Shown in pieces: positions 5,331 to 40,312 of a DNA stretch of 64,000 bases (position 1 is the first letter of the stretch; each line of letters starts with the position of its first letter). A program made the translations under genes and the position numbers. The stretch is from Loxodes magnus (Eukaryota > Ciliophora > Karyorelictea > Loxodida > Loxodidae), in the NCBI GenBank assembly GCA_946699065.1, contig CAMPDV010000150.1, positions 310,001 through 374,000 on the forward strand, in the 5' to 3' direction. The notes beneath the pieces are model-generated. The model ran no database searches and was not told the origin of the DNA. It saw only the letters and a program-made list of their open reading frames with translations.

Positions 5331-5344
5331 ATATTCTTAACTGG

Positions 5345-6293
5345 ATATATATTTACTTTTAATTAATTTAATTTTAACTAAAAGGTTTTAGTCATCTTTA
5401 ATAAGATGATTTCTCCCTCAAGATAAAGACGATAAAATTTTTATTATTCATTGCTCAACTTTACATGTCTTCGTCTGAGTCATTTTAAAACTAAGATAAT
5501 TTTCTTTCATTTCAAATGTCCTGCTTATTGTTCTTCCCTCTTGTAGTTTGTCTCTAGCTTCTCTAAATAAATTCTAAGGTTATCATTGTCTTTTTAAAAT
5601 TATTTATTTTGCTTTTTTTAATTACTAAGATTCTTTTTGATCTTTTCATTCTTCGAATTATCCAACCTAAGCTTCTTCCTGTAAATAACTCCAAATCAGT
5701 TACAATATGGTCTCTTCGATGTTAAAATTTTTCAGAGCTGCTTCGGTACGCTTTTTTGCTTCTGACATTACTCTATAGATTTCTAGTTTTTTGACAACAA
5801 TAGCAACTTTTTATAAAATACTTGAAAAAAATTCTTCATTGCATGATAATTTTTTTTTCAGTTTCCATCTTTTCTGTTTGAGGTTAGTTTTTTTAAGTGG
5901 TAATTGAACTTTTCTTTAAATTTCTATTGATTTGCTGCTTGGTTTTTTATTATTAGTACAAATTTGGAAGTTTAGGCTTCCTGATTAAAACTAAGATTGA
6001 CTTAGTAAAGTCTTTATCTTACTTTTTTATATTACAAAATAATCATACTATCTTATTTCCCATATTCAGTATTCGTTTGCACGATTAAGGAATAAAGCTA
6101 AATAACTTCTTGCTCAAAGGTTTTCTCAAAATATTTCATTTTATTAATAAGTTCCGTATCTCCCAACCCTTAAAAGAAATAGATTTACCTATTTTAAATT
6201 CTTGACTCTTGTTTGTTTACTAAAAAATAAGATTGATCTATTAGGTTAGAATTTAATGCTTCCTTTCCTAGATTTTTTATTCCTTGAAGAACA
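5345..6293 (-). mobile_element. Retroelement-like insertion in the beta-helix pseudogene
   Basis: The right-arm gene lacks this stretch, which interrupts a beta-helix repeat unit. Read on the minus strand, the middle (about 5500-5800) gives a coiled-coil-like Lys/Glu/Gln-rich frame. Its 3' end (left side) has a perfect hairpin CATCTT-TAAT-AAGATG at 5393-5408, followed by a tail of the form TTTTAGTTAAAATTAA. That tail closely resembles the 3' tail of the LINE at 29757-35804. I read it as a non-autonomous or truncated relative that borrowed the LINE tail. No clear target-site duplication was found, so both edges are approximate. Confidence 0.5.
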
Positions 6294-9200: not shown

Positions 9201-11876
9201 TTTAGTAATGTATATCCGATGACGGAGCATTCTTATAATTGTAAAATGCATAGTTTTAAATTTAAAATTCTAGAATTTTTAGTAATATAGTATAAAACTT
9301 AGGTATCATAAATCTTCGAACTTCGTGCATTCAAGACATAAGTGTAATACAAAGCCCCTAAATTTTTGAAAACTAAGGAAAAATAAAATGATATTTGTTT
9401 ATTAAAGTTATCTTATCCTTTCTGATATACATATGTAAGAGAATAATGTAACGAGAATAAATGCTTTGCAAGGAGTATTTGATAATTAAGAATTAATAGT
9501 AAAGGGAACTCAGGATTAAATATAACGTTGAATTTAGAAACGTAATGCTATCGATAAAAGTTTTGATTACCTAAATCTATCCAATAAAATTAAAATTGAT
9601 ATTTAAATCTAGCATTGTTTGGGTGGTTAATTATTATAATTTGGTAATGAATGCTTTAATTGTCGTTGGAGTATATTTGCTTTAGAAAAAAATTCCTCAG
9701 TTTGTAAAGATTGCATGGATGAGTTAAATGATACGGGTTGATTTGATTATACCAAAGACAGGATATTTAAGAGTAAATTTGAACACTACCAAAGTACACA
9801 AGTATCGAAATAATTATGCTTGTAAAGGAATTTATTTAAACGAGAGAAAAATAGCTGGATATCTTATGGCTCCTAAAAAAACTGAAAGAGAAACAAATTT
9901 TAGCATTTCAATATTTTAAGGAGGAGATTGTGAAGAAGGGCATAAAGGAATTTTATATGATGTTTGCTTAAAAAAATGGGAAAAATAATTCAGAACATAA
10001 ATTCTAAAGATGTCCATCTAAAGAACTTTAATCATTTAGGTATTTTTAGTTGTGATAATTTTCACATGCTACATAATATTTTAAGTTAAAAAAACTTTGC
10101 AAAATACAAATCGTAAAGAATATTTCGGTGTTTACTGACAGATTTTTACAACTCCTTGTAATTTACTTCTTTAATCTACAATTTTTACATAAACTAACCT
10201 GATACATTCAAAAATCTATTTTAAGTTAATGGAAAACTTAACTCAGCAATTATCACTGACAATTACTTTAAGTTTGATTGCATGAGTTGGGAAGAAGAAA
10301 ATAGATATTAATATAAAGTGCTATCTCTTTTACCTTTAATGATTTGATTATATAACAGTGATGAGCATTCCTTTTTTCTAGATAAATACTAATATTATAA
10401 AAACTCTTTTGGATCATCGAGCTATATTAGGATTTCCGGAAATAAACGTTTTAAACGCTTATACTGAAATTACTTGGAGGTAAGATAAGCATATAAAGTT
10501 TATTCTTGCTGTTTCAATTCTTGGGTTGCTTATATACGCAATTTTAGTTCCTTTGCTAGTTATATGATATCTTAGAAAGCATTAGAATGAATTTAATAGC
10601 CAATTTCTAATACAACAATTTGGATTAATTACACTTGGATAGCAGGAAAATTTTATTTCTGGGAGATAATAAAGATATATGAAAAGTATCTAATATCACT
10701 GTATTCATATTTTTACAAAATAATACTATCATATTCTAGTAATTATGCCTAATCCTTATACTAATTGGATGCATTATACTTTAGAATATTTACAAACTCT
10801 TCTAAATCGAAGAGTTTAATACCTTAGAAATAAACTATTTATATATTTCAGCCTTTATTTTATACTTAGGTATTTACTTTGACTCTGGTGAGCGTTTTTT
10901 CACTATAGATATAATTGTTTTTGTTCTATTAATTTTAACTAATTTCTATTTTATTATTAAGTGTCTTCGCCACTTTATGGTTGAAGTTATCATTGTCATA
11001 TAGATAAAATTTTTTCAGTTGTATCGATAGATAAGTTTCTTCAAAAAAGAATAAAGCTTTTGTATATAGAAAAGAAGTGGGAAAATAAAAAGAAAAATAT
11101 ACAAGAATAAGAACAGTCTAACAAATTACCTTTACACAGACAATCTTCAAAGCTATAAAGAAAATATTGGAAAAATGAAATCTTAATAAATAATAATAAT
11201 AAAGCATATTAGATTAAGAAAACTACCTATATTAGTTTATGAAAATAACCCTATTGATTCTAAAACAATTAAGCATCTAAAAAAAGTAGAATTTTATCTC
11301 CTTTGTGATACTGATATTTAAGAATTTTTGGAGTAAAATTATAATAATCAAAACAAGTAGGAAGAGGAATATTGAAAATAAAGATAACTTTAATTTATAG
11401 ATAAATGGCCTAATATCTCAAAGAATCCATTATTTATAGAAAATTTAAAAAGTTAAGCAGGAAATAAAAAAGCCTATAAGAAGAATCCTATAATTTTTGA
11501 AGATACTGACAAAGAAAGAAGTTAGCATAACTAAGATGAATTAATGAATGATGAAAATTTTGCTTTGTAACTAAGACCATCATCAAGTTAAACTTAAGAG
11601 ACTTAGGTAGAAGATTAATATCAAAAATAATAATAATAAATAAGATAAGTGGATCTGTGCTTAGAGATCACAGAAACAACCAAAAGTTAAAAAAATGAAT
11701 GAGAATTACAAGAGGAATCTGTAGAAGAAAAATAACTTTGCTTATATTATCCAAGTTAGATATATCAAGACTTGGAAATTGATTTAACACAATAGTAATT
11801 TGAGGAGACAAAAAATACAATGAGTTTAAATAAACTGCCTGAGGAGGAAGAAAAGGAGAGCAAAAATGATCTCTGA

Positions 11877-13433
11877 TCAAGCTCATAGACTCTATTTATA
11901 TCAATTCATATCTTGATTAAAAGTCTATTAAACATTTTTTTTATTAAATGAATAAAATCGCACTTTAGACTCATTGGAATTAAGGCTAGGCTTAATAGCT
12001 CTAAACTTCAAAGAGTTTATACTTCTTTAATATTATAATTAAGATACTTAAAGTGTGATTTCCTTATAAAATAATTTTAAAATGCTTTTTACTCACTAAT
12101 CATAAGCTTGATTTCTAAAGTTAACATGGTATTAATATTAAATAAAATAGTTTAAATTTAAAAGTATTAAATCTGAAAATAGAACCAATAAGTTGATATT
12201 TTTAAAGAGATATAGTATAATCAATATAATATAAGGAAAAATAAACAGATTTTGCCTTTACAGTTACATTTATAATTAAATAATAATAATAGCTGTTTTA
12301 TTATTTAATAAATTAGCCTTAGATTAGAGAAATACTCATATATTAGGATTTACTTATATTTTCTCAATAAAGAATAGTTATTATAGTTATTAAGTTTATT
12401 TGCCTTTATACCTAAAGTTATATTAAAAGTAAAAGGAAAAAATTATAAAGCTTAGCGAATTAAAAATAATTAAGACTCTCATTTTAAATATTTTTTACTA
12501 AGTTTAGTTAATATTCTACGCATTTAATGCTTTAGCAATATCTTAAAGTATTAAATTTGGAAAGCTAAATTAAGTAATTTAGTTGCCTTATAATAATGAT
12601 AAATGCTTAATTTATTTAAGGATCTTTCAAAAGAGAAAAGTAATGCATAATTGGAATGATTTGTAAGTATTTAGCTATTGAATATTTATATTTGATGGTG
12701 ATATAATTTTCTTCTTAATAAACAATAGAAACTAGTTAACTAACACTTTATCACTTATTAGTACTTATGCTTTTAAGTTAAAATACTAAATCATATTTAA
12801 ATTTTAGAACATTGCTGTCTTTTTTAATTAAAGCGCTTAACTTAGCTTTAAGACATAACTTGTGACTTATCTTAAAATATAGCAACTTAATTTGGTATTG
12901 ATAGTTTCTATTATATTAGGAATGTTTAGCTTTATAGACAATAGAAATATAGCTAATTTAGATTTATAATAAATGTAATAACTAGTAAATAGATTTAGTA
13001 AGCATTAGTTCTCTAAAGCTAAATAAAATGTTCTAGTTTAGAATTCTATCTAGCAAAGTAGATTTGCTAATATACATCTGCTAATTAGAATGAATAGATT
13101 GATTTAGCAGCTTAGCTTATTAACTATTTGGTAAGTTGCTATCAAACTAAACGTTTCTTATACTTATTAATTATTCCAACTTACTCCTACTTTGCCTTCA
13201 TATTAAGCTTTGTATAAGCTTTAGTTACTTTATCTCTTCAAATCTTTATTACCAAACAATTAAATCTTAATATCTATGCAAGTGACTATATATAACAACA
13301 GACATAAAAGCAAGAAATTAGGTATATAAATAGAGAGTTTAATAATAATAAAGGCTATAGGCTAGTAAGAGTAATACAGAGTTTCTATTTAACCAAATTC
13401 TCTTTATTTTCATTACTCTTTCCAAGAAATTAA
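11877..13433. other. Spacer between the beta-helix gene and gene B
   Basis: No supported gene. Its inner part, from about 12303, is preserved almost unchanged in the third copy (from about 52380) and reverse-complemented in the right arm (to about 42600). Whatever promotes gene B should lie here. I see no recognisable promoter motif beyond high A+T. Confidence 0.5.
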
Positions 13434-14741
13434 ATGGGAAACAAATAAGAAAACCAGAAAATAATTATCCTAAAGAGGTAAATTAATTTTTCTACTTTCT
13501 CTAATTAATAAAAACATCCAAATGCTTATGAAAGAGATTCAATGGCTTAATAAATTAGAGTTAATCCAAGAACTAATAATCCCTTTTCCTAGAATCTTAG
13601 AATTTAGCATCTATAACATACTTAATGCTAGGACTTTTAGACCAAATAATCTATGCTGTAAATGTCAGGATCTCAAAGTGCGAGAAATTAAATTTAAGTG
13701 AATAATAATTTTCCTAAGATAAGCAATGAGTATTTATAAAATGATCAGCAAATTAAAATGCATGAACCTCAACTTCCAACAGCGTATGAGATTCAAAAAG
13801 TATAAGAAGCTTGCTTGCTAGTATAATAAATATTAACTGATATTTCCTGCGTAGAAATAAATAAAAATATATATCCTTCTATTTTAGCTAAAGGGGTTAA
13901 TTATAATTTAGATAAGCATATAAGGAACATTCTACAAGGAAATGGAAGCGAAAATCTTTTGGAAGATTTGAAATTTTCCTTTGCATCTAGCACCTTCACA
14001 GGAAAAAGTTCATTGACTGGCAATTCTTAGTCTTAATCTTCTTTGCACGGATCTTCATCAATTTTGAGTCCAAAAAATATCCCTGGCTTAGCAATTGATA
14101 TGCCTATTGACCAACTTTTGCTTGTTTAAGGAGATATGGATCAATTTAAAAAAGAATAAGAAAAAATATAAAAAGATAAAAAAATGATAGCAGAATGAGA
14201 AAAAAGACTATAACAGAAACAATAGGATATTATTTCAATGAAAGGAAATTAAAACTTAAGAACTAATTCCTAAACTGAATAAAAATAGAAAAAACTAATA
14301 AGTAAAACATAAAACCTTAATGAAAAAGATAATAAACCGAAGATTAAAGCTTAGAAATCATAAAAAATGAAGTAATACTAAAATTTCAAGTTTTAAAACA
14401 AAATTGCTAGTCTTTAAAAATAGAAGCAAGAATAATAAATTACTTAAATCAAGGAATAATTAATTAAAAATCCAATTTATGAAATCCATGTAAACTAACA
14501 AAATAATTTTTAATCAAATACAAGCTCTGACTTCTAATAAATTCTTAAATAGCCGAGTTATCAAAGCCAAAAAAGCTAATAAAGCTAGCGAAGCCAAAAT
14601 AGTAAAAAGTTTCCTACAGAAAGCAGTATTGAGTAAACAGCTTCAGTATAAAACTAAATAAGTATTACAGAGCTGGAAAAATTGATGGATTCTTAGTAAT
14701 CTGAGGGAATTTAGTCAAGTAATAAGAGTTAAAATGACTGA
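13434..14741 (+). CDS. Gene B, Gln/Ser-rich coiled-coil protein (copy 1)
   Basis: Not recognised as a known family. The frame is 436 codons from ATG (MGNKQENQK) to UGA at 14739-14741, with UAA/UAG as Gln and one internal UGA read as Trp in AEWEKRL. Order of features: a basic, Gln/Asn-rich N-terminus; a more conserved-looking helical stretch (LPTAYEIQKVQEACLLVQQ) at about 115-135; a Ser-rich patch; a charged coiled coil (DQFKKEQEKIQKDKK) at about 235-270; and a Gln/Ser/Lys-rich C-terminus. The direct copy at 53511-54818 has exactly the same length. Differences between the two cluster around and after the UGA, which supports that stop. No membrane segment or signal peptide is visible. Confidence 0.7.
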
Positions 14742-15019
14742 TATAGTTATCTTTATAGTAATTTTGATTTTAAGCTTTATATTTTACCTTCTTTAGTTTA
14801 AAATTTAATAAGGTTTTAGATATAACAAAGCATTAAAAGAGACTTTTCTCAAATGATTTATTAATAAATGATTTAATTAGCATTAATACTATTAATTATA
14901 ATGCTACTAGTAGATTGAAAACTATTTTAGGGTTACTAAATTCAGTTGATTTTAACATTTTAGTTTCTAAAATTGTTTATTAATTTATATTAAATATCTC
15001 TTTAATTTTTAAAAGCCAA

Positions 15020-17630: not shown

Positions 17631-18365
17631 ATTTAAATTAAATTATTAATAAAAATAGATGCTTATAATATCAGGAAGTTAGAAAATTAAAAAAATATAA
17701 ACTGGAATATTAATAAACTAATTAAATTTTAAAAAGTAACTTATTCTCTACTTATAGATAAAAGAATCATTATTTTTTCAAACTTAAAGGCTTTCTTAGC
17801 ATAAGCAAAACTTTTCTACTCACTGTTTAATTTATTAAATAAGAAACAATAAAACAATAACATTATAAAAGAAATAAATAATATAAAGAAGAATCTAGTT
17901 TGTTTTGTATACTTAATGAATTCTAACTTAGTTTATAAACAAATAACTTTTTCAATCGGAATTTATTTTTTTAATTTATATAATGTCTTAGTTTTATGAA
18001 AAATTGTAATTTTCTGAAAATAATAATCTCTAAAACTTCAAAAATTATAACTAAATAAGTAAATTTTTTTATTTATTTCTGAAGTGAAATTAATTTTTTT
18101 TCAGTAAAAACCTCTTACATTATTTTAGAGAGTTATCCAATAGAATTAAAAAAGATTAAGTTTTCTAAAACTTGCTGCCAGTTTTAAGAGATTTATATCT
18201 ATTTTATATAGCAAACTTAAATATAGAAATAAATAAATAATTTGAAATGAAAGTTTTAAAACTTTTATATCTCGATATTACTATTTCGATAATAAAAATA
18301 AGTAATTTATCTTTTTAAGGAGATCCTGATTTTTTTATCTTTTTAATAAAAGTATTATATAATTA

Positions 18366-18520
18366 AGTAATACCGAATAGTACCTAGTTATCTAGTTATA
18401 ACGAGAAGTAGTACCTTATAGTACCTAGTTATAACGAGAATGAATATCTAGTTGTACCGAATAGTACCTAGTCGTACCTAGCCATACCTTTAGTTACTTA
18501 TATTTATATTATCTATCTAG
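18366..18520. repeat. rDNA spacer repeats, left copy
   Basis: Degenerate tandem copies of GTACCTAGTTATAACGAG and shorter AGTACCTA/GTACCGA words. The same family lies at 23985-24150, behind the 26S. Repeats of this kind on both sides of the genes are typical of an intergenic spacer in a tandem rDNA array. Confidence 0.8.
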
Positions 18521-18521
18521 G

Positions 18522-18556
18522 TTTTTACATCGAGATCCTCATTACTATATCTGCTG
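18522..18556 (+). promoter_or_regulatory. Duplicated spacer block upstream of 18S
   Basis: A TACATCGAGAT...CTCATTACTAT...CTGCTGG block follows the spacer repeats and recurs almost exactly at about 24177-24212 after the downstream repeats. It sits 0.5 kb before the 18S, where an RNA polymerase I promoter could lie. That role is inferred from position and duplication only. Confidence 0.35.
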
Positions 18557-19065
18557 GGGTTTTACTTATTTTAACTTATTTTGAGTATTAAAGTACTAAA
18601 TTTCAAATTTTTTCAAATTTGAAATAAAAGATGATAAAGACCTAACCTGAAAAGGTATTGATGCTTGACTATCTAGAAATGATGAAGAAGGAGAACATTT
18701 TAAGTGCTAATAAGTAGTAAGAGGATAGAGATAAAAGAATGAAAAGAGAAGTAAAAAGTATGAATAAGAAGATTTCTTGGACTCTATAAAGAAGTGAAAA
18801 TTTCAAATTTTTTGGAAATTCGAAAAAAGATAAAATAAAAGTAAAAGTTTGGATAGATGAAGAATGGAACGAAGGAGATGATATTTAAGTATGAAACACT
18901 TTAAGTGTTACCATTTGAGACAAGAAGATATAATATAAGTAGACAAAAAATAGAAAAGAGACTTGAAAGAAAAAATGATGGGTTTGATAAATGAGTATGC
19001 GTGACAAAGGCGTGAATCTAAAATAGTTGTAAGGGTAAAATGCGAAATAGAAAAGTATGGATATA
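18557..19065 (+). other. External transcribed spacer region
   Basis: The leader before the 18S contains no gene. Two related blocks beginning TTTCAAATTTTTT occur near 18600 and 18805. The first forms an inverted repeat with the following CAAATTTGAAA. Confidence 0.45.
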
Positions 19066-19878
19066 AATTTTGTTGATCCTACCAGTAGTCATATGCTTGT
19101 CTCAAAGAATAAGCCATGCATTTGTAAGTGTAAGCGTTTACTCGTGGGATTGCGAATGGCTCATTAAAACAGCGATAGTTTATTTGATGATGTGTTAGAT
19201 GGATAGTCGTAGTAATTCTAGAGCTAATACAAGCAAGATGTTTATTAGATATCGTTCGTTCGGGAATTATAATACACGAGGACCATGCTGTTAAGCATGA
19301 CAGGTCATTCAAGTTTCTGCCCTATCAGCTTTCGATGTTAGTGTATTGGACTACCATGGCAGTGATGGGTAATGGAGAATTAGGAGTTCGATTCCGGAGA
19401 GGGAACCTGAGAGACGGCTACCACATCTAAGGAAGGCAGCAGGTGCGCAAATTACCCAATCCTGAGGGAGTGACAAGAAATAAAGACACCGGGCTTCGTC
19501 TCGGTGATTAGAATGAGAACAACGTAAAAGCGATAGCAGTCGCGGTAGTCCCAGCTCTAGTAGCGTATATTAAATTTGTTGCAGTTAAAAAGCTTGTAGT
19601 TGGATGTCTCTCTTTTATGATGTAAAAGTCATATGAGGGACCTGCCTGGCAGCATCATACGTACTTAAGTGGACGATGATGAAATACGGACCCTTTACCT
19701 TGAGGAAACTAGAATGTTTAAGGCAGGCTCCTACCAGAATACCACAGCTGGCAATAATGCTCGTGGTTAGTCTTGGCGAGACTATCTACTATCTTTAATA
19801 GGGACAGTTGTGGACTTTGTTATTCCGTATTCAGAGGTGAAATTCTTGGATTTACTGAAGACCAACTACTGCGATAGT

Positions 19879-19914
<36 letters not shown>

Positions 19915-20131
19915 TTTAAGGGATCCAAGACGATCAGATACCGTCCTAGTCTTAACCATAAACTATACCAACTAGAGATCGAGGAGACCGTATAAATCTT
20001 CTCGGCACCTTCCGAGAAATCAAAGTCTTTGGGTTCTGAGGGGAGTATGCTCGCAAGACTGAAACTTAAAGGAATTGACGGAAGGGTACCACAAGGAGTT
20101 GAGCCTGCGGCTTAATTTGACTCAACACGGA

Positions 20132-20169
<38 letters not shown>

Positions 20170-20692
20170 TTGAAAGCTCCTTCTTGATTCTATGGGTGGT
20201 GGTGCATGGCCTGTCTTAGTTGTGGAGTGATCTATCTGGTTAATTCCAATAACAAACGAGACCTCAACTTGCTAAGCAGACTCTTTCTATCCGAGGAAGT
20301 TATCTTCTTAGAGGGACTTCCAGCTTTTAGTTGGAGGAAGTGTGAGTCAATAACAGGTTTATGATGTCCTTAGATGTCCTGGGCCGCAAGCACGCTACAC
20401 TGACGCAGCCAATGAGTTCCTAAGTATAGCTACTCCTGCAACCTCATAAGCGTCGTTGTTGGGATTGACCCTTGCAATTCTTGGTCATCAACTAGGAATT
20501 CCTAGTAAGCGTAAGTCATCAGCTTGCTCTGATTAAGTCCCTGTCCTTTGTACACACCACCCGTCGCTCCTACCGATTTCGAGTGATTAGGTGAACCTCT
20601 CGGACTAATGAGAAGTTAAGTGAACCTTATCACTTAGAGGAAGGAGAAGTCGTAACAAGATATCCGTAGGTGAACCTGCGGATGGAACATTA
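19066..20692 (+). rRNA. 18S small-subunit rRNA, degenerate copy
   Basis: Nearly the whole length is recognisable, from GTTGATCCTACCAG at the 5' end to GAAGTCGTAACAAG and GTAGGTGAACCTGCGG at the 3' end. The stretch CTACCGATTTCGAGTGAT near the 3' end is ciliate-like. It is probably not functional. The 530-loop region, universally GUGCCAGCMGCCGCGG, is reduced to GATAGCAGTCGCGG near 19540-19555. The usual GGGCAAGUCUGGUGCC part is missing and many otherwise invariant G/C positions have become A/T. The 3' end GGATGGAACATTA replaces the usual GGAAGGATCATTA. Ends are placed by analogy with other eukaryotes. Confidence 0.85.
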
Positions 20693-20778
20693 ACATTAAT
20701 ATCAAACATTACAAAACTCAAATCTATTTACAGCTTTATACTGCTTTTCATTTTATCAAATATATAAACCTAAACAAA
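20693..20778 (+). other. Internal transcribed spacer 1
   Basis: Short AT-rich spacer between the 18S 3' end and the 5.8S. A length under 100 bp is in the range of ciliate ITS1. Confidence 0.6.
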
Positions 20779-20935
20779 GCATAAGCCCCAGCGATGGATG
20801 TCTAGGCTCTGGCGTCGATGAAGCACTCAGCGAAGCGCGAAATTCAATGCGAATTGCAGGACTCCGCGAGTCTTTAAGTTTCCCAACGCAACAGGCACCT
20901 AGGGGAAACTCAAGGTATATTCCTTTCAGTATCTC
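20779..20935 (+). rRNA. 5.8S rRNA, probably degenerate
   Basis: Recognised from GATGGATGTCTAGGCTC, CGTCGATGAAG and AATGCGAATTGCAG in the usual order and spacing. The normally conserved GAACGCA is CCAACGCA here, consistent with the decay seen in the 18S and 26S. Ends are approximate. Confidence 0.8.
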
Positions 20936-20997
20936 AAAAAATACAAATGTAAGTAAATAAGAATTCTCTTACCAAGTGAAAAAACTGAGTATATGTA
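20936..20997 (+). other. Internal transcribed spacer 2
   Basis: Short AT-rich interval between the 5.8S and the start of the 26S. Confidence 0.55.
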
Positions 20998-23930
20998 TTT
21001 ATGATCTGAGGGGAGCAAGATAACCCGCTGAACTTAAGCATATCAGTAAGTGGAGGAAAAGAAACTAACAAGGATGGCCTTAGTAACAGCAAGTGAAGCG
21101 ACCAAAACCCACTTGTAAATCTTCAGAATTGTAAGCTAGGGAGGAATGGTGTAGGTTTGATTGCACCTAAGTGGTCAGGAATGACACGTCATGGAGGGTG
21201 ATAATCCCGTGAGGTTTAATTAGATTGAAAATCAAACTATATAAGAGCCAGACAGCTTGGGATTGCTGTCCAAAGTGCGAGGTAAACTCCTCGTAAAGTT
21301 AGATACGTCTAGAACCTGATAGTGCACAAGTACTGTGAGGGAAAGGTGAAAAGCACTTTGGAAAGAGAGTTAAAAGACCTGAAATAGTTGGAAAGGAAGC
21401 TGCGCGTCTACAATAAATCTGAGCAAAGATTTGAAAAGAAGTATTGCAAGGATATAATGGACGGAACGTCCTGTCTTGAAACACGGACCAAGGAGTCTAG
21501 CTATATCGCGAGTCTGTGCATGTAAATGTGTAGGCGAAATGAAAATGATCTCTACCATCCTTAGAGGCCCGAAAGCGGAGTAAGAGAAATGGCTGGGATC
21601 CGAAAGGTAGTGAGCTATGCTAGGGCAGGACGAAGCCAGGGGAAACTCTGGTGGAGGTTCGTGTAGGTGCTGACGTGCAAATCGCTCTGTGGACCTGAGT
21701 ATAGGGGCTAAAGACTCATCGAACTATCTAGTAGCTGGTTCCCTCCGAAGTTTCTCAAAGGATAGCTGGGACTTTTAGTGGCATCTGGTAAAGCCAATGA
21801 ATAGAGGTTCGGGAGGAGTTACTCCTTTCTCCTATTATCAAACTTTAAATGGGTGCAGTAACGTTTCATAAATGAACGTGACATGACATAAATGTCCCTA
21901 GTTGTCCAATCCTTGTAAGCAGGACTGGCTATGAGGGCCCAACCTAAAGCGGAGTAAAGGCGACAAAACCCGTCTGCAAGTAAAGGCATTAGTCAATTTA
22001 GATAGTAGGACGGTGGCCTTGGAAGTCGGAACTCGCTAAGGAGCGTGTAACAACTCACCTAACGAATGGACTAGCCCTAAAAATTGAAGTCGAGAAAGGT
22101 GGATGTCCATACTCTGCCTTCTGGTGTAGGAGGGCATAGTATCTGTATGGAAGTAATTCTGTGAAGAGTTATGGAGCAGGTATTAGTGCAGATCTTGGTA
22201 GTAGCAATTATTCCAATATCATCTTGGAAGACTGAAGTGGAGAAGGTTTTCATGAGAACCGCATTAAATCATGAGTCACCCGATCCTAACCTTACGAGGG
22301 AAAGGGAATATGGTTAATTCTCCATAGGTACTTCTACATAGTGGTGACACAATATGCTGTAATATGTCGGTGTTAGTCCTGGGGAGAGTTGTCTTTTCTG
22401 TCTTACATACATGCGCGCCTGGATCCATTACCGTGAGTGAGGCGTGATATATGGAAGAGCAGCATATTATATGTGTTGTCTGGAGCACCAACTACGATCC
22501 ATGAAACTTTCGGCATGTAATATGTAGAAGTATTCGTACCTATACCGCAGCAGGTCTTCAAGGTTAGAAGCCTCTAGTCAATAGGACAATGTAGGTAAGG
22601 GAAGTCGACAAATTAGATCTGTAACTTCCGGAGAAAAATTGACTCTGTGGGCCAGGCAGAAGTCTCCACTAGAGGGATTATATAACTTAATTTTCATGGA
22701 AGTGAGAGTTTTGTCGCCATGACCGAAGGTGGTAGGCCTTGCGGCGAATGGCCACCTCAGAACTGGAGCAGCAGGAGGAATACAACTGCTTAGTTAAAAC
22801 AAAGCATTGTGAAGGTGATATGTTAACACAATGTGATTTCTACCCAGTGCTCTAAATGTCAAGATGATGAGATTCAACGAAGTGCGGGTAAATGGCGTGA
22901 GTAACTATGACTCTCCTTAGATAACCAAATGCCTCGTCATCTAATTAGTGACGTGCATGAATGGATTAACGAGATTCCTACTATCTCTTTCTACTACCTA
23001 GTGAAGCCACAGCCAAGGGAATGGACTTGGCATGATCAGAGGGGAAAGAAGACCCTGTTGAGTTTGACTCTAGTCTGGCGCATAGAGCGGCGTAGAATAA
23101 GAGGGAGGCCGCGATCTTGAAATACAACTACTTTTAATGTCGCTTTACTTATCCTGTCATGTAGTAACTTTCTAGCAATGTAACTGGGTATGAGAAACCG
23201 CCAGGTGGGGAGTTTGAATGGAGCGGCACATCTTTTAAAAGATAACACAGGTGTCCTACGGCCAGCTTAGAGTGGATAGAAACCGCTCACAGACCAAAAG
23301 GGGAAAAGATGACTTCATTCAACCTCTCAGTGTTAGGATGAACTGGCAAACCATGACCTATCGATTTTTTGCCTTTATGAGTTTTAAGCCAGAGGTGTCA
23401 GAAAAATTACCAAAGGGTTAACTGACTTGTGGCAGCCAAGCGTTCATAGCGACGTTGCTTTTTGATTCTTCGATATCGGCTCTTCCTATCATTGTGAAGC
23501 AGAATTCATCAAGTGTCGGATTGTTCACCTGTCAAAAGGACGTGAGCTTGGCTTAGACTGTCGTGAGACAGGTTAGTTTTATCCTAATGATCACTGCGTC
23601 ACCACAGTCGTCCAACTCAGTACGAACCGTTGGTCCAGATCTCTGGTATCGCCATTGGTTGAGCAGCCCGTGTGGCTACGCTACCATCTGCATAGATTAT
23701 GACTGAACGCCTCTAAGTCAGAATCTAATCAGGGAGCGACACCTTCTATCTACTTATGAAAACAATATTTTTTTATATCCCCAAGCCCTCCCCATGTCTG
23801 TTAGCAGAATAAGGACGGTTTATCACATATAAGTAGATAGGATAGATCCTTTCTAGACCACTAATTATTGACCTGGAGTTGTACGCTTAAAGTAAGCTTG
23901 CCTTACGATCTGCTAAGACTCTTCCACGGT
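20998..23930 (+). rRNA. 26S large-subunit rRNA, degenerate copy
   Basis: The start is set at ATCTGAGGGGAGCAAG before ACCCGCTGAACTTAAGC. Many core blocks are recognisable, including TTGAAACACGGACCAAGG and AGCCAAGCGTTCATAGCG. Several sites that ribosomes need are altered. The sarcin-ricin sequence, universally AGUACGAGAGGAACC, reads AGTACGAACC at 23619-23628, losing the GAGA tetraloop. The peptidyl-transferase strand ACAGGGAUAACUGGCUUGUGG reads AAAGGGTTAACTGACTTG near 23411-23430. CUCUUAAGGUAGC reads CTCCTTAGATAAC near 22912-22925. These indicate a pseudogene. The 3' end is approximate. Confidence 0.85.
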
Positions 23931-23984
23931 TACTCGATCTATCTCTTCTTTATCTCTCTGCTGGAACATTACTCACTTAAATAC

Positions 23985-24150
23985 CTAGTAGTACCGAGTG
24001 ATAGTACCGAAAGTACCTAATGTACCTAGTTATAACGAGTAGTAGTACCGAGTAGTACCTAATCGTACGCAGTAGTACCTAGTTATTCGAGAAGTAGTAC
24101 TTAATAATATCCCTTAGTACCGAGTAATACCTAATCGTTCCTTTATTTAC
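23985..24150. repeat. rDNA spacer repeats, right copy
   Basis: The same GTACCTAGTTATAACGAG-type words as at 18366-18520. The duplicated TACATCGAGAT...CTGCTGG block follows at about 24177-24212. Together they mark the start of a second spacer copy, with no second rRNA gene after it. Confidence 0.8.
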
Positions 24151-25080
24151 TTATATTTGTATCATCTTCTAGGGTATTACATCGAGATTCTCATTACTAT
24201 CTCTGCTGGCTCTTAGTAAACTGTTAGCAGATTGAAATTTATAATTTTAGGTGTTTCTTCTTTATATTCTTTCATTTTTTAACTATCTCACCAGTTTGCT
24301 TATTTACTTTATCTAAATTTATAAAATTACTCGTTATTCTCGCTTGATTAGTAAATTTCAGGAGTTTCTCATATTTTTATTTTATCCTCGTCAATGCTGT
24401 CTTATTCCTTTATACCGGTCATTTACTCAAACTTATTAAAGTTTTCGTCTATCTTTTTTATATTCACAGTATAATTAGAATTCTTTATGAAGTCATAGTC
24501 CATAAAATTTTCTTTCTATTTTAATTCTTTTTGACTAGAATTTTTTACATTCTTTCTTACTCTAAAGCTCTTTTCAAAAGCTATTTATTATAGAAATTTT
24601 ATAAATAAATAGCTAGATATTTAAGGACTACATCTCCAAAGTTTCCATCTTTTTAGCTTAGGATATATTTTGTTTCACTTCATTTGCATTTTCTTAAAGA
24701 CAGGATTTTGATTTTGATTTGTTTAAATTCTTTTTAGCTTACCTTTTTACTTTCTTTCATGTTCTTCCTTCTATCATTTTTTATCTTTTTTCATTTATGT
24801 TCTTCAGAAAAATCTAAATCTAATTTCTCCTTCTAATCCAAACTAGATTCTGCTTCTATCTATTCTTCTTACTTAAAAAATACAGCCTTTCTGGAAGGAG
24901 CAACACAGAAATCTCTATAATATATCTTATATCCATAATCAGTTAGATTTAAAGGTCTGAGAGTTTTGAAAATATCAGAATCGGCTAAAATAACTTTTTT
25001 GTTTTTTGGATTTTATGAAGTTTCTTTTTCTTGCACAGTATGTTCTTTTTGCATAATCTAATTTACGCCTATAATCATCT

Positions 25081-25423: not shown

Positions 25424-28400
25424 CTTTTTTAACATACCTAGTGGTTTTTATACCTCGTTTAACAAGAAGATGAAATTATAGGTTTTCATAAATCCTTTTT
25501 CTTTTGTATCGTAGTCAGATCATCTTTCTCTAAATTCCTAAAATTACTATGAAATTATTTCCTACTCATTCTCACTTTTGATTATATAAAATCCATCTAG
25601 CATTACAACTACAAAAAGATTCATCATTATAACTGATTAAATTACTATGAAACTAATAAAATAAGGATAAGTTATCCAATTCTACATCCTCGAACTCTAT
25701 CTCTTTAAATATCATCATAGCTCTTTCCTTTTATGTACTCTTCGTCATTATAGTCTGAACTATCTGCACAATTATACATTATCTTATTCCAGTCTTCTCC
25801 TGTAGCACATCTTAACAACAGCAATATTGAGCATATCTGTTAAGATTATCGCTAAGCATTACATAACCAAATAGATTTATTTCTAGAAAGGCATAAATAA
25901 AGAGTAGTAGGATTACTAAACCTCCTATATTGCAAATTACAGGTAGCAAATACACCAATGTATCTAGTAGTACTAGAATATCTTTACTTGACTTTATTAT
26001 TTTAAAAACTCTTGTAATTCTAAAAGCTCTAAAGATTGTCACTATGCCACTAATATTATGGACAAAATTTAATTCTATCAATATTCCTGTGTCAGTAGCA
26101 ATAACTATAAAGAAATCAAAAAGGTTTCAATTATCATTAAAATAAGACCAACCAAAAGCTGATATTTTAATGAATGCTTCTATATTAAAAATTATAGTAA
26201 ACATTAAGTTAAGTTTCTCCAGTACTTATTCATATAAAATAGGTTGTTGATAATAATTCATTCTCATTATTACTATATTACACAATATGCAAAACACTAT
26301 AAAAAAATTTAAATATCTTGCTTTAGCAAGCTTAAACATCCATAATCTCCAAGTTTTTTTTGGTGGATTATATATTTTTAAAGGGGGATATTTTTACATA
26401 AACTTTTATATGCAAACTCATTGTTTATGCTAATCTGTTAGCATAAAATTTCCTTCAATTGTGTCCTTCATTTGTTTAAAGTTAGCGAAAAAGACTCCTA
26501 TGATCAAGTTAAGTATAAAGTTGTTACCAATTATCATAAAGAATATGAAGTAGAAAACTCATCCTTCTTAGTTATTTCTTTATGGTTGCTTATCAATACC
26601 TACAGCATCTACTCCATTGTACATTATTTCCAATCACCCTTTTTAAATAGTCATTTCAAAAAAAGCCTTTAAGCTCAGAATATATTATCAAAATTAAGGT
26701 ATTATTTTTCTCAATCTCCTCCAATGATTTCGAATTCTTCCTCATCTTTGACATTTAAACTACATTTATAAAAAGTTCCTTTAAAAAGTTAATTCCAAGT
26801 AATGCGAAAATATGAAAGAGCGATTCCAGTAATTATCACTAAATTACCTAACTGAGGAATAGCTTTCATTAGAGCATTTAATACTATCTTAAGATTTTCA
26901 TTTCTCGAAATCATTCTCAAAGGCCTTAGAGCTCTTAAGGCTTTTATTGATTTTAAAGTTTGTGAAGATTCTTATTGAATGAATAAGCTAAACAAGTTCG
27001 TAAAAACTATTATGAAATCTAGTACATTCCATCCTACAAGCATAAAGGAGGACAAGTTCTCTTATCCTTCAAAAGTGCATTTTATGAAGACTATGGTTTT
27101 AGATTAAAGTAGTCCCTGTCTCTGAAATTAGTTTATTGTTTATTCTTACTTTTATTATTTTCCTTCTCTTTTTTCTTTTTCACTCTTATTATTTCTTACT
27201 CTTTCTCGGAATTTTACTTTTTTGATTAAACTGCTTATTATTACTTCTGAAGATCTTTTTCCTTTGCCTTATCAAGTGAATATTATTAGTTGATTTTTGA
27301 AGTTTGTCTTGGCTAAGAATCTAATAATATTGCTTCTTTTTATTTTATATTATCTTTCTTTTTTTCCAATTTTTTATTTTATAAGTTTTTCGTAAAATTT
27401 CAATTCAGTTTTGTCTCTAGTTTATCCGATTAAAACATCTACTTATATTTTAACTGCTATTAGTCTAAGAATTAGTTACTTATATCAATATTTAAATTAA
27501 GGAATTACTAATTAAACCAATTAAAATTCTCTTTTGAGAGATAGTTTGAGCTCTAAATAATCTTTAAATAGTCTTTTTCTTTAATTACTTAGTTTATTAT
27601 ATTTAGCAGATCCCTTTTAAGAATCTTTTTTGTCTCTTCTTCGAACTTTCCTAGTAAAACTGCCAGAAATAGATTTATCATGATAAAGAATCCAAACAGT
27701 ATGATGGCTATGAAGAATAGACATGATAGATACCCAACTGCTCTCATACAGTTATACATCACTTGGTTTCATTTCTTTCCTGTTAGTATTTAGAAAACTG
27801 TTACTATAGCTCATAAAATTGTGTCGAAATTAGCACGAGGAACTTCTCCATTCTCATCTAAATTTCCTTCTTTATCGAAATGTAGCCTTCCTGCGAAAAG
27901 TTGCATTCCCAATAAAGAAAATACGTAAATGAAGAGACCTAATAAGATAGAGAAGTTTCAAACAGAAGTGATAGTAGCTGCTATAGCTTTATGGAGTCTT
28001 TATAAGGTATTTCAGCTTTTTATGAGTTTGATAATTCTTAAAAGTCTAAAAGCTCTCAATGCACTCACTGCACTTCTCCCTCCTAATGCCATTTCAAGTA
28101 AAGACGAGGCATTAATGATAAAATCAAAAATATTCATTTTTTCTCTGAAATATCCCTTTAATCCTAACCCAATTATCTTGCAGCTATTTTCACTAACGAA
28201 CACACATATGAAAACCAAATTAAGTATATCTGAAATTTCTTGGAACTAATCATCTATAACAGGGTAAGAATCCATAGAGAGAATAACAGTGTTAACCAAA
28301 ATAAAAATCATGATAGTATAGTTAAATCACTTTTAGTTAATAAGCTTATAGAAAAAAATAGTTAGTCTACTACTATAGTAAGGATCTTAAGGAAGTTAAA

Positions 28401-29738
28401 CTTATTGTTTTATTTAAGAATCTTCTTTTTATTATTTGGATAGAAGTCATATTTTTTTACTCATATTAGTTTAGCATTTTATGATTTATATCAATTATTC
28501 TACAGCATCTTCATTTAAATTTTTATAATATAACTCTTCTTCCATTTACTTAATGCTTATATACTTTCCTCACATGACTGCTACTGTTAAGTTAAGTATA
28601 AAGTATGATCATACTAAAATCATTATTATGAAATATATTGAAGATATGTAATAGTTGTGAGCATCCTGTATTAGATACATCATAGTTGATCATCCTTCTA
28701 TTGTACTACACTAAAATATAGTTAAGTATGCACTCCATATATTATCAAAGCTTGTTATTCCTCAATTTGTCTCTTCTATTTCATGAGCTTTACTTTTATC
28801 CCCTTATATGAAATATCCTTTTGGTACTTCATAGTTACTTCCACATGTTTCTCCACTATCACATTCATTCTTTCCCCCACATACTGAAGTTTCTTCTGTT
28901 GTTTATCAAATTCCTCATTCATTTGGATGTTCTTCGTACCTACATCTGTATTTTAGCAATCCCATTCATAAATTAGTGCCTAAAATACTAAAAATAGAAC
29001 GAGAAGGAATACATTAGGTAGCTATGAAATGCTAGTTAATAGAGTTTTAACTACAGTTTTCATGGAAAGAAAGAAGGATAGAGATCTTAAGGGTCTTATT
29101 AATCTAAAGGTTCTAATAGAAGAAGTATTTCCTAATCAGGAATATAAGAAAAAGCAGCTGTTAAAGCCATTATAAAGTCAAGCCAGTTTCAAGCATCTCT
29201 TAGATAGGAATTAGGTTTTCAAATAAGTCCCATAGAGATGATTTTAAGAATAGCTTCAAGAACAAAGAAAAAAATGAAAATAGATTCGGCAATTTCGACA
29301 ATTTATTTTTTAAGAGAAATATTGAAGTGAATACTTAAGAAAGTGGAATTGAGAACAATAATAAAAGTTATGAATCTGTCAAATCATTAATGGGCAATCA
29401 AACAAACAACTTTTTTTCTAAACTTATTATAATCGTAGAGGTACCAAAGAGAATCTTCTGAAAACTTGTAAACTTTTAATGAGCGAAAAAGTTACTCTTT
29501 GATACTTTTTTCTTGATAAAGAAGGTTTTAATTGCTCTTTAACCTCAGGAAAGACCTAATTATTATTAGCTTTTAGTGGTTTTTCTTAAATCTTTTTTCC
29601 TCCTAAATCTTGCTCTCTTCTTTTTCCATAATTTAATTTTATCTCTACTATTTAATTAAAATAAAATGAAAGAAAATAAACATTTAACTTTTTTTCACAC
29701 TTTAAATTTACTCTGTCACAATACTAATATACTACAAT

Positions 29739-29829: not shown

Positions 29830-29873
29830 TAGTAAATGTTTTTAAATAGTTTTTTAATCTTGTTTACATCTCA

Positions 29874-32800
29874 TCATTTTTCTTTAATTAGTTCTTCTTT
29901 CTATTCATCTTTAGCTTCTTCCTTTTTTGCTTTCTCCATTTCTAGAATCTCAAGTCTCCTTGTCATTAGCTTCTTATGAAATATTTTGATCTATAAGTCT
30001 AAATACTCCAATTTAGACCTTGAAAATGAGTTTAGATATTCTTGATCGTATAGTATAAGGCGCCTTAAGTCATAATTTCCGATATTTTCCGATAATCAAT
30101 TCATTATATTAGAATAGTACACACATTTAAAGATATGCTCGAAAGTTTCATACTCTCCACACATACAATAGGGATTATCAATGGGGTAATGACGATCTTA
30201 AAGATCCTTACGGAAATTATAAGTTTAGGTTCTAAGTTTATATATACTGATAATTTCTCGTCTATACTATTTGTTTAATTTAGTATAAGTAATTTGTGGA
30301 AATTGTTAAAGATTACCAAATTATTCAGTATATACTCTAGCTGTTTTCATCCTCATAAATTTTTTAGTAGCTACTTTGTAGAAATATTGTTGTATTTTTT
30401 CTCTTACATGTTTAGTAAAAGTTTTAAGATTGGTATTATTCTATTAATTCTGCAGATCGATATTATAAAGGTCTGATAATTGCTACACTTAATCGTAGTA
30501 TTGAAATCCTTTTTTCCATATATTAATGAAAAGAGAGCCTATTGTTGATCTTGGAAAATCAGTACTTTCTTATTTAATTTTATGGTAGAATCTGAAGAAT
30601 TTTATAGCCATAATGTGCTTAAAGGGTAATCAATTCAGGTCTATATAACATGATTCATTAAATGTTGAAGTTGCTACTTAAAAAGCTTTTCTTGAAATTA
30701 ATCTCATGCTTGATTCTATTCTGTTCAGAACTCCAGTTACTCCTTTTTGAATACTTCATGGTACTAAGTCTCCTCCATATTCTGCTTTAGGTAATGTAAA
30801 AAGTCTACATAAAGTTTTAAAATGTCAAGGAGTTACATTCTTATATCTCATCAGTTAAAAAACAGCTTTCTTCATTGCAGCTATATACTTGAATGCAGTT
30901 TCTTTGCAATGGGGATTTAAGTTCTTCTTCTAATGTAGAATAACTCCTAAATATGTTACTTGTTCTTTTTAAGCAATTGGCTAATTTCCTAATCATAAAT
31001 TTAAAATTTATTATTTCTGATTCTTCTTTAGAAATTAGATGCATTCGGATTTGGTAACATTAATCTTTAAATGTGTTCATGCAAAAACTTTATTTGCTTC
31101 ATTTATTAAATTCTACATCTACTTTGCAGATTTGGAAAGAAGAATAAGATCATCTGCCCATCCTCTACAAGCGAAGCTAATACTTGAATCCTGGCATTTA
31201 AATCCCAATTAGTTACTTTTACTTTCCAGATATCTAATTACTATGTCATAATACAATAATGCTAAAACTGGTCCATGAGAACTTCCTTACATAACTCCAT
31301 TGTTGAATTATAAAGTTCTGGTGCTCTTACCATCTATGATAAATGAAGAATTTAGGTTTTTATAAAACGATTCTAAGGCTATTATTATTCCAAGTGGTAG
31401 TTTAACTCTCTTAAGTTAATCAAACAATAGTCTTCTTTCTATTGAGTCAAACATTTTTTCAACGTCTATCAGTGTTGCTATCAATTTAGTCTTACCTTTA
31501 GCACATTTCCGATAGTTATCAATTATTTGTTATATTATTCAAATTTATTAAGTTGTTTATCTGTTTTTCATAAATCCCATTTATGAAGGGTGAATCAAAT
31601 TTCTCTAATAAATCAGATTGTATAGTCTTTTTGTTAAAGCTTTATCATATAGTTTTAGAATAGTATTAATAAGAGAAATAGGTCGTCAGTTTTTCCAATC
31701 ATCTTTATTTCCTTTTTTAAATATTGGAATTATCACCGATATATTTAATTCCTAAGGGATTCTTCCAAGTCTTAGCATATTATTCAGAAAAGAATGAAGA
31801 ATTATTAATAAATATTATCCACCATATTTCAGAAGTTCGCCTTTTATTCCATCTGGACCAGCTGCTTTTCCATTCGGAATTTCTTTTATAATTTCTTATA
31901 TTTCTTTTATGGTAAAAAGATCAAATCCTTACAAATACGAGAGTGGATAATCTTTAATTTCTTAAATATTATCGTATATTTTATCTATTTTTTAATTACT
32001 AAGATTTATCTATTCTTGAGTTAGATTATAATGCTTGTTAAAAACACAATTTTCCCATGATTCAATGAATTTATTTTTGATTTCTTAATTAAAGTTCATA
32101 GTATTTCTCTTCAAAGGATTTAGAATTTTCTTAGCCTGTGAAAAAATTTCCCTAGAATCTCCATTAAGAAGTAGAAATTTCTTTTTTGCTTTGTTTTTTT
32201 TTAATTTTCATAGATTATACTTGAAGTCTTTCCAAAGTCGTTTTGCTTCCTCATGAAGATTAGTTACTTGCTAGTTTATTCTTCCAAATCTTACGTGAGC
32301 TTCCTTATATTCTGAGTTAGTTCTTTTTGCCTCTATATATTTCTTTGTGAGAGCTCGAGGAAGTTTGTTATAATTTGAATCTGGAATAAACGAACCTAAT
32401 GTTTGATCAGCATTGTCTTAAATATTACTTTTGATGCATTCATATTAATCTTCAAGATTATCTTAATCTATTTAAAAGAATTCTAGATAAGTTTGTAGGA
32501 AAGATTCTTAATATTTTTATCTATCTATTGCATCTTATAACCTATTTATTTTATATTTTATCTAAGTTATCTTTTCCCAATATACTATAGAATTATTGAT
32601 AAAGTCGACAGTGATTGGAATATGATCAGAAAATAAACTATTATTATGAGCAGTGAAATTTGCAAACTAATTAACGTTCAAATGGTTGTTTATAATGATA
32701 TAATCATTACAATACGTTTTTCCTGTTCCTTTGTGAATACATGTATTAATGTTGCTATCATTCACTATCTCAAGATCGTTTTATAGTAAGAATTCTTATA

Positions 32801-35789
32801 GTCTAATGTTATTATCATAAGCATTTTCAGGATTATCACCGAAGCCTTATAAAAGAGCATTGAAATCTCCCATTAGTATATGTGGATTATCATTATATAA
32901 ATTCAGCAATGTATTTAGTTGTTCATAAGCTAAATCTTTAACATCTTAACTTTTTCCATTATCAGGCATGTAACAAGACGTGATTAAAATATTATCCAGT
33001 TTAATTGTTATGAATCTATTTATTTCTTTTTCAACTTATATATGTATTTCTGTACTATTAAATTCTTCTCCTACAATTAAGCATACACCTCCTCCTTTTC
33101 CTGAGTTCTTAAAATATGTTTTAAATCCATTTATCAATATTGGAGGAAAGTCATCTTTTTATCAGGTTTCGTTTATTGATAAAATATCTATACTGTTATC
33201 TCTGATAAATTCTTCAATATTCAAGCACTTGCTCGCTATTCCATTAATATTTATATGTCCCATCTTTATTTTTTAAATTTATTAGTCCTTTCTAATTTTT
33301 TCCGAGCCTGCAGATAGACCACTTTCGTAAATGCAAATGCTTTTCTATCCTTATTGGTTAATCTAAATATGTACTAATCTTTTTCCATACTCAGGATGTT
33401 AATGAAAATATTGTATCAAAATATATATTACTTACGTCGTATATTTTTTAAGTAGCTTTCTATCTATTTCAATTTTACTTTTCACACTATCACATGTACC
33501 TTATTCTAAATCTTAAGTAACTGTGACATATCTACCTTATATATTGTGCATTTCGTACTATGGACGTCTTCAAGTTTCGGATTTAATAAACTTTTAAAGT
33601 TATAGACTAGTCAGATTGAAATAACATATTATTTAATCGCACTCTTTTTTATTATTATGTTTACTCATACGTTTTGCTGGCGGGATTGTTTTATCTTCTT
33701 CTTCATGTTTCCTTTTAAGAATATTAAGATTAATATTGGAAGATAAGGCTTAATTCTGATAAATAGCATCGATCGAATCTTTTTAGTTTTATTAATCTTT
33801 TTTTCATCTTTTAGTAGAATAATTAAATATATCTTTTTTCAAATTTTAATTAAGTTTTTAAAACTCTTCTATTTTTATCTCAAGTGTCTACATATTTTGG
33901 GTACTTTAAATGAATTTTAAGTTGAGTTAGTGATATTAATGCTATAGTAAAACAAAATCTTCATCTGGCAATTTTATTTGACAGTATTAGTTATTATGTT
34001 ATGTTATAATAGTATTAGTTTATGCTTCCTATTAATTATTTTAAGTTTACATTAACTTGTCTTGCTTGATTATATTTGTTTGAGTAAATTTTTGACACAA
34101 AAAAGCTGTTTATTATTTATTTATATTATCTGTTTAGATAATACTATCCTTTGTTTAAATATTTCCATATAATGTCTAAGTTTATGCATCTACAAATTAC
34201 TTCTTCTAAAATTACTATTAATTACTGAATTCTTTTGTATGTTAGATTTAATTCTAAAATAATTCTTTATACATTTGAATTTCCTTATTTTTTAATAGAA
34301 TTTAATTTTGAAAAGCTATATTTATTTCATATTTTTATTATCTTTACTTATCTAATTCGATTTTAAAAGTTAAAATTTCCATTTAAACTTTCTATTCTTA
34401 ATCTATAAATTACTTATTTTAGTTTTATAATTTTTAATATTAAGAATATAACTCTTGGAGTTAAATTTCGTTTATTATTTTTTATTAGGTAATTTGTTGA
34501 AGTAAATATTAGTTCTATTCTAATATAGTCTATTGATATCCTTGCTAAGTTTTATTTAGAAAGTTATCTATTTCAATTTAAGTAAAATTTTTAATTTTAT
34601 TAAAGTTTTGGCATAGTGAATTATTTGCTCCTATCATTTAAGCTTAAGTAAAGCTTTAATTAGCATTGGCTTCAATTTGAATCTCTTAATTAGATTATAT
34701 TTCATATTTTGAATTGACTTAATTCTCATAGTTTTTCTATTATATCTAAATTTCTTGAAATATACTAATTATTTCATCTGTTTAAACTATTTAGTTACTG
34801 TAATAAGTGGAGAAGTTTGTTTAAGTAATTTTATGAACTAGTTATTTTGATAGCATTTTTTTGTGATATTGCTATATATCAGATTTGATTGACTAAAAAT
34901 TGTTCTATAATTGTTTATATTTCTAATAAATTTTATTTATATAAGTTTTATAATATATTTTGGATATTTCTTAGTTACTTATCAATGTTTCAATATCTCG
35001 TTCATATTTTGCTTTTATATTAATTAACATTTCATTTAATTATTGGTTCTTATCTATAAGTCTTTATATATTATGTTTAAGTTCTTTTATTTCTAAGGTA
35101 AATAAATTCTCATTAGACTAATTAATTATTTGATTTTATATTACATTTCTTAAATCAGCAGTTTAATTTTAAGCTTGTTTGCTCTGAAGATCAGGTAAAT
35201 AATGATTATTTGAATTATCAGGATTAGTAGTATTATTTTATTTCTGATTAATTTCGTTATTTGAAATTTAATAGAATTGTTAATTAGTATTATTCAAAAA
35301 TGAATCTTAAGTTTATGTTATTTTTGACTACCATAAAAGGATATCTTTATTTGAATTTTAATTAGGATTTGAAGGTATATCTTTTGAATTCTAACTATCT
35401 AAGATAATATCTTATTTTTGGAAAGATTTCTTAGGTAATCGTTTCGTATCTTTCGCGGTATTATTTTAGGCGGTTAATCTGTTCATCTATTTATAGGTTG
35501 ATTTCACTTTCATAATACGCTACAATTAATATCCACGTTGAAGAGAGTTCCTAAGTAGTTTTAATGGGACGCGTATGAATTTGTTTTCCGGTTTTTGACT
35601 ACAATTTTTAAGTAGTTGTCTTAATAAATTCATTATTAGGTTTACTTATTTAATTTGTAGTTACTCCAAATCTTTCGTTTGGAGATTTTAATGCACCTGC
35701 CTATGCTTTTCCTATGAATTTGCAGCTTCTTTGAAATTAATTAAAGAAGAGTCACTATTAAAAACTAGTGAATTCTATATTTCGTCCAT
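29874..35789 (-). CDS. LINE polyprotein: coiled-coil, AP endonuclease, reverse transcriptase
   Basis: The frame is 1972 codons from ATG (MDEIQNSLVF) to the first UGA of a tandem UGA UGA, read through line by line without a frame change. Residues 1 to about 840 are Gln/Asn-rich with coiled-coil stretches and a basic PPAKRMS. From about 843 follows an AP-type endonuclease: GHININGIASK, NETW with Trp 876, GDFN at 974-977. Reverse transcriptase follows: NWRPISL with Trp 1368, DVEKMFDS at about 1442, a QG in VMQGSSHGP, GWADD with WADD at 1544-1547 (usually YADD or FADD), then YLGVIL. The C-terminus has a CxC...H...C finger at about 1875-1890 (CMCGEYETFEHIFKC). Catalytic Asp pairs are kept. UGA is Trp at 876 and 1368, UAA/UAG are Gln. 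The first part replaces a separate ORF1. Confidence 0.93.
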
Positions 35790-40213: not shown

Positions 40214-40297
40214 TCATTTTATAAATACTCATTGCTTATCTTAGGAAAATTATTATTTACTTAAATTTAATTTCTCGCACTTTGAGATCCTGACATT

Positions 40298-40312
40298 TAC
40301 AGCATAGATTAT
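40298..40312. repeat. Target-site duplication, 3' side of family 2 insert
   Basis: TACAGCATAGATTAT, repeated exactly at 41211-41225. The uninterrupted sequence in the left arm has it once (reverse-complemented near 13655). Confidence 0.88.

Follow-up and report, generated by a model that had tools for sequence, protein, structure and literature searches.

The only ribosomal RNA gene unit in a 64-kb stretch of a ciliate-like genome is very probably a neutrally drifting pseudogene

The 64-kb stretch of DNA analysed here (the window; contig CAMPDV010000150.1, positions 310,001 to 374,000, with all coordinates below counted from its first letter) carries one ribosomal RNA (rRNA) gene unit on the plus strand, in the order small-subunit (SSU), 5.8S and large-subunit (LSU) rRNA, at 19066–23942, and all three Rfam models are matched over their full length. 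The unit is very probably a solitary pseudogene of the ribosomal DNA (rDNA), i.e. an rDNA orphon (a dispersed single rDNA repeat), formerly a repeat in a tandem array, flanked by spacer on either side and now outside the homogenised array. Paired and unpaired sites have equal substitution rates, base pairs break as a neutral simulation predicts, and compensatory change is lacking among the altered conserved SSU pairs; together this indicates that the unit drifts neutrally, with neither its sequence nor its pairing under purifying selection. The initial annotation, made from the letters alone, had described a complete-looking unit with the rRNA order kept, and an unselected copy left to drift; the three ordered full-model matches bear out the first statement, and the substitution and pairing tests the second. 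Most likely the finding is an ordinary fossil gene copy of a known kind, not a strange ribosome.

Upper-case letters in Rfam consensus lines mark conserved positions, and 1428 of them were counted in 29 Infernal alignment blocks (SSU model positions 1–635 and 854–1574; LSU 1–91, 182–363, 832–922, 2122–2485, and 2619–3163). Skipped or poorly conserved stretches were left out (SSU 636–726; LSU 92–181, 364–831, 1949–2121, 2486–2618, and from 3164), and these also hold some conserved letters, e.g. in LSU 364–420; SSU 727–853 and from 1575, and LSU 923–1948, are likewise outside the count. Within the counted blocks, 32 of the 1428 conserved positions are deleted and 135 of the remaining 1396 are substituted (9.7%). 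Substitution is equal in paired (59/566) and unpaired (76/830) conserved sites (P = 0.46). There are 91 transitions and 44 transversions. Changes from G/C to A/T are found at 85 of 673 sites and the reverse at 36 of 755 (P = 1e-7; deleted positions are inside both totals), which agrees with the earlier remark that many invariant G/C positions are now A/T.

The two commonest changes are C to U (36) and G to A (29), together 65 of the 135 substitutions, as might be seen if repeat-induced point mutation (RIP) or a similar targeted mutator had caused the decay. We give this explanation almost no weight, since the other 70 substitutions, 44 transversions among them, are of other kinds, and RIP prefers CpA, while C to U at CA (6/65) is the lowest of the four contexts. 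At CG the same change affects 14 of 64 sites vs 22 of 203 elsewhere (P = 0.03). A RIP-type rRNA pseudogene, recognised by near-exclusive C>T/G>A changes in RIP context, was also considered as such and rejected on the same counts. In the 45S rDNA pseudogenes of filamentous ascomycetes, types of change besides G to A and C to T, counting indels, are reported to stay below 0.1%, and RIP is named as the probable cause (PMC5555474). Those pseudogenes share with the present unit the escape from concerted evolution and changes in conserved structural regions, whereas the window unit has many indels, transversions, and A/T to G/C changes and lacks a RIP context.

Sequencing or assembly errors are an extremely improbable source of the lesions. 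The neighbouring channel gene has frame changes that indel errors could also give, but 10% of substitution that is transition-rich and A/T-directed is not an expected error pattern, a nearby retroelement stays in one frame for ~3.4 kb (1139 codons), and segmental duplicates in the window agree at 99.5–100% over 1.4–2.6 kb.

The effect of the substitutions on pairing was evaluated for 229 conserved pairs of the SSU and LSU with upper-case letters on both sides (5 gapped and 5 non-canonical pairs were set aside). In this set 186 pairs are unchanged, 17 have a single change with pairing kept, 23 a single change with pairing broken, 2 a double change kept, and 1 a double change broken. The neutral simulation gives 179.4, 21.9, 24.5, 1.7, and 1.5 for the same categories, and the observed split is alike.

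For comparison, eleven eukaryotic rDNA fragments (L001–L011) were taken from public viral and prokaryote records, where they are presumably eukaryotic contaminants; they carry no species assignment. Four of them (L001–L004) appear to contain long insertions in the rRNA genes, judged by the gaps between BLAST pieces. The leave-one-out and pair tests were made without L001–L003 (long insertions), without L004 in the 3' half of the SSU, and without the partial L010 in the 5' half, with five controls used for the 5' half and seven for the 3' half. In the MAFFT alignment 21 conserved SSU pairs of the window unit are changed, of which 12 are broken and none is compensatory, and 6 pairs are gapped; the eight controls together have 19 changed pairs, with 3 broken, 12 compensatory, and 4 single changes that keep the pair (P = 0.010 for broken and 9e-6 for compensatory pairs). 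At variable positions, 77 of 335 pairs are changed on both sides yet still pair, as expected from a functional ancestral gene of a diverged lineage.

The lesions destroy functional sites at four places, with deletions in the sarcin-ricin loop and helix 18 and changes in the peptidyl-transferase and decoding strands, all on the plus strand. In the sarcin-ricin loop (23618..23629) the Infernal alignment shows a 5-nt deletion, so that the consensus AGUACGAGAGGAAC reads AGUACG-----AAC, and the intact 16-mer has no match anywhere in the 64-kb window at up to 3 mismatches; this bears out the deletion that had been proposed for the tetraloop. In the helix 18/530 region (19530..19555), noted earlier as altered or missing, the same alignment has the 5' strand deleted, with the loss of 10 upper-case positions, and the remainder substituted. 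More gaps are found there in MAFFT, and the universal 530 19-mer has no match in the window at up to 3 mismatches. The peptidyl-transferase strand (23407..23432), for which the same alternative had been given, is altered but not missing: against the Rfam consensus Infernal shows three substitutions, of which two hit upper-case positions and the third a lower-case one. In the decoding-site strand (20553..20567) a G to A change in CACACCGCCCGTC was read directly from the sequence, and the motif CACACCGCCC reads CACACCACCC in the window. Among the eleven controls, the intact 530 motif is present in 6, the decoding motif in 9, and the sarcin-ricin motif in 1, and the loci lacking an intact motif have no BLAST-aligned sequence at that place; in L011 the sarcin-ricin motif sits 33 nt outside the BLAST-aligned piece. 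These lesions support the initial annotation in its view that a ribosome carrying them should not work.

An rRNA that still functions but has diverged strongly, in a fast-evolving lineage or a specialised ribosome, would account for the retained order and near-full length of the genes, and the doubly changed pairs at variable positions also fit a once-functional lineage; moreover, along parts of the gene the most divergent controls are substituted at least as heavily. The deletions in the sarcin-ricin loop and helix 18, the absence of compensatory change in all 21 changed conserved SSU pairs vs 12 of 19 in the controls, and a split of kept and broken pairs equal to that of neutral drift make such an rRNA highly improbable.

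At upper-case SSU positions on which three or more other controls agree, the window unit is substituted at 48 of 512 and deleted at 17; among the eight controls the difference is 0.4–5.4%, and none has more than one deletion. Counted on plain upper-case positions, in the 5' part of the SSU the unit, with 31 of 263 positions substituted and 20 deleted, lies above the controls, and in LSU 2619–3163 it has 34 of 334 substituted and 7 deleted vs 13 of 275 and none in L011. The LSU controls are few, with L011 alone aligned well in this last interval and none in 2122–2485.

Several observations weigh against the interpretation as a neutrally drifting pseudogene. At the SSU positions shared by other controls, the substitution-rate gap to the most divergent control, L008, is modest (P = 0.013). 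In the 3' SSU, with plain upper-case positions, the unit (28/336, 8.3%) falls between L007 (25/339) and L008 (30/338), and in LSU 182–363 it equals L011 (12/90 in both) and lies below L008 (23/89). The divergence is not fully even along the gene, with block rates of up to 19% (dispersion P = 0.056), which may reflect a conversion patch or a mild early constraint. Since the neutral simulation took over the observed spectrum, its only test is the split of kept and broken pairs, and the whole comparison is made to the Rfam consensus and the control loci, not to functional rDNA of the host species. Since the unit overlaps the controls in parts of the gene, the substitution rate alone is not decisive, and the weight is carried by the deletions and the pair test.

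The unit is flanked by two diverged copies, one on each side, of a spacer element of ~220 nt resembling an intergenic spacer (IGS), both on the plus strand. The upstream copy (18341..18557, with an approximate left edge at 18331–18368) consists of TAGTACC/CGAG short repeats ending in ACATCGAGATCCTCATTACTATATCTGCTGG, and the downstream copy (23980..24209, left edge also approximate) was delimited by BLAST and by alignment to the upstream one. Between 18368–18557 and 24002–24209 the identity is 73% in BLAST with gaps counted and 76–78% at ungapped sites. The flank-to-flank score of 126 bits compares with at most 64 bits in 142 control flank pairs at similar spacing (the subset of 200 draws that overlapped neither the unit nor the 81-bp arrays described below). 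The terminal 31-mer of the element occurs in these two places only within the window, and the similarity ends abruptly on the right, after TCTGCTGG in both copies. The diverged spacer on both flanks suggests that the unit formerly belonged to a tandem array. Ungapped sites show 22–24% difference between the copies (Kimura two-parameter distance 0.26–0.29), i.e. 0.13–0.14 per copy if they were initially identical. Substitution in the rRNA genes is of the same order, which would be expected of genes and spacer drifting in the same way.

A solitary state is suggested by the absence of a second rRNA match inside the window and by the abrupt right-hand end of the spacer similarity. Like rDNA orphons, the unit would be a single drifting copy outside an array; it differs from them in retaining spacer copies on both sides, and its separation from an array is known within 64 kb only. 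It may have been isolated when an array contracted, or when an excised rDNA circle integrated via recombination in the spacer. Once isolated, it would no longer have been corrected by functional copies through concerted evolution and would then have decayed, with functional rDNA copies presumably located elsewhere in the genome. As a neutral clock the unit gives ~10–14% of unconstrained change per site since isolation, with G/C to A/T favoured ~2.6 to 1 per site. A practical consequence is that a full-length 18S–28S unit in a ciliate assembly can be a fossil, which misleads barcoding or structural work if it is taken as expressed rRNA. In the partial literature collection searched, no report was found of an 18S rRNA pseudogene in karyorelicts, nor, among the titles and abstract openings listed, of a ciliate rDNA pseudogene.

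The search for related sequences in other collections gave no matches for the spacer 31-mer or for the LSU pattern in viral contigs (0 each). In the plasmid collection 451 records match; among the matches listed, 26% of the query is covered by a single record of 1.7 kb and at most 6% by any of the others; in the phage collection 11 records match, each covering at most 4% of the query.

The reading frames point to a ciliate-like genome: under the bacterial code no open reading frame of 120 amino acids is present in the window, and with TAA and TAG read as glutamine there are 39 of at least 250 amino acids, some of which are chance frames (three overlap the rRNA genes). In respect to TGA, tryptophan is the best of ten readings for RVT_1 (105.7 bits, next 103.2), Exo_endo_phos (37.5, next 36.0), and Ion_trans (205.6, next 197.7); with Exo_endo_phos_2 the ten readings tie, and in the weaker PKD_channel match tryptophan gives 31.5 bits, below seven of the nine other readings (up to 41.4). 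Thus the neighbouring genes lean, by small margins, to translation table 27, and drift from TGG to TGA could mimic part of this signal. Table 27 (TAA and TAG as glutamine, TGA as tryptophan or stop) is the code of karyorelicts, Loxodes included (PMC11441545). Judged by the code of the neighbouring genes, the host is probably a karyorelict.

The drift had originally been explained by ciliate germline biology: in a germline-limited (micronuclear) copy the rDNA would be free to drift, as a different copy would supply the excised and amplified rDNA of the soma. The ciliate-like frames and the unselected state of the unit fit this idea, but no telomere-type repeat and no Tetrahymena-type chromosome breakage 15-mer at up to 2 mismatches was found in the 64 kb (the inverted duplication described below was not tested as a germline mark). 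The lean towards the karyorelict code also stands against it, with Loxodes magnus as the point of reference. That species is reported to have hundreds of rRNA genes in comparable numbers in both nuclei, arranged in head-to-tail chromosomal arrays, with no evidence of rRNA amplification, and its retroelements carry the domain pair RVT_1 and Exo_endo_phos_2 (PMC11441545). This domain pair, chromosomal rDNA, and likely also the genetic code are shared with the window; the Loxodes magnus arrays are presumed functional, unlike the window unit. Excision and amplification are therefore disfavoured as the reason for the drift, and a germline-limited copy is unlikely; a unit that escaped from an array explains the data with no need for a difference between germline and soma. 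If the host is a karyorelict, relics beside array rDNA would fit a lineage reported to eliminate little somatic DNA. That the dead unit is still transcribed in a karyorelict keeping such somatic DNA, with the aberrant rRNA playing a role (a decoy, a source of small RNA, or a spacer seeding array rearrangement), seems to us very unlikely.

The components of the unit, all on the plus strand, are as follows. The degenerate SSU (18S) gene lies at 19066..20692 (Rfam RF01960, 1215.7 bits, E 0), the degenerate 5.8S gene at 20783..20934 (RF00002, 89.2 bits, E 7.6e-21), and the degenerate LSU (28S) gene at 21002..23942 (RF02543, 2091.9 bits, E 0). The intervals between the matches correspond to internal transcribed spacers ITS1 (20693..20782, 90 nt) and ITS2 (20935..21001, 67 nt). 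The 508 nt between the upstream spacer copy and the SSU gene (18558..19065, 26.6% GC) are, from the anatomy of the unit, a probable 5' external transcribed spacer. The GC content is 43–51% in the three rRNA genes vs 16–33% in 1-kb windows around the unit. The genes measure 1627, 152, and 2941 nt (SSU, 5.8S, and LSU), vs 1831, 154, and 3401 for the Rfam models, so that the length, described at first as kept, is kept only roughly; much of the shortfall lies in lower-case (variable) segments of the alignments and may be a trait of the lineage. The end of the unit had been placed at 23930, 12 nt short of the Rfam end. Over the whole 64 kb, no Rfam family other than the SSU, 5.8S, and LSU of the unit reaches the gathering threshold, and ARAGORN, run with the bacterial code, gives no tRNA in the window.

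Downstream of the unit, a voltage-gated cation channel gene is found on the minus strand (~25500–29205; Ion_trans with E down to 5.7e-73), in which four domains are recognised by eye; the best match of one of them among solved chains is to Cav2 calcium channels. The gene looks decayed, with frame changes near 29140, 28965, and 26810 and no short GT-AG candidate at those places. A 25-nt GT-AG candidate is present near 27091, and introns are still possible in places. In two domains a lysine replaces the glutamate expected in the pore filter (in one case from the alignment, in the other judged by eye). The next gene, also on the minus strand (~29870–33370), is a non-LTR retroelement with Exo_endo_phos_2 and RVT_1 domains in one frame of ~3.4 kb. 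Its 1139 codons include 59 TAA/TAG and 10 TGA, several of the latter, by eye, at expected tryptophan positions, and the frame terminates in TGA TGA. A comparison of this frame with solved structures gave no match.

A large inverted duplication is arranged around the dead rDNA unit, pairing 2030–13753 with 40205–52380, and 12297–14939 with 52376–55016. Its pieces are 80–97% identical, a 2.4-kb core is 100% identical, and part of the duplication is recopied as a direct repeat of 99.5% identity. Chlam_PMP-type repeats occur on the right arm, for which the minus strand was scanned, while the left arm was scanned with Pfam in two single frames only. Tandem repeats of 81 bp (27 codons) lie at 4027–5345 and 49887–50411, one arm of the duplication holding 16.3 copies and the opposite arm 6.5.

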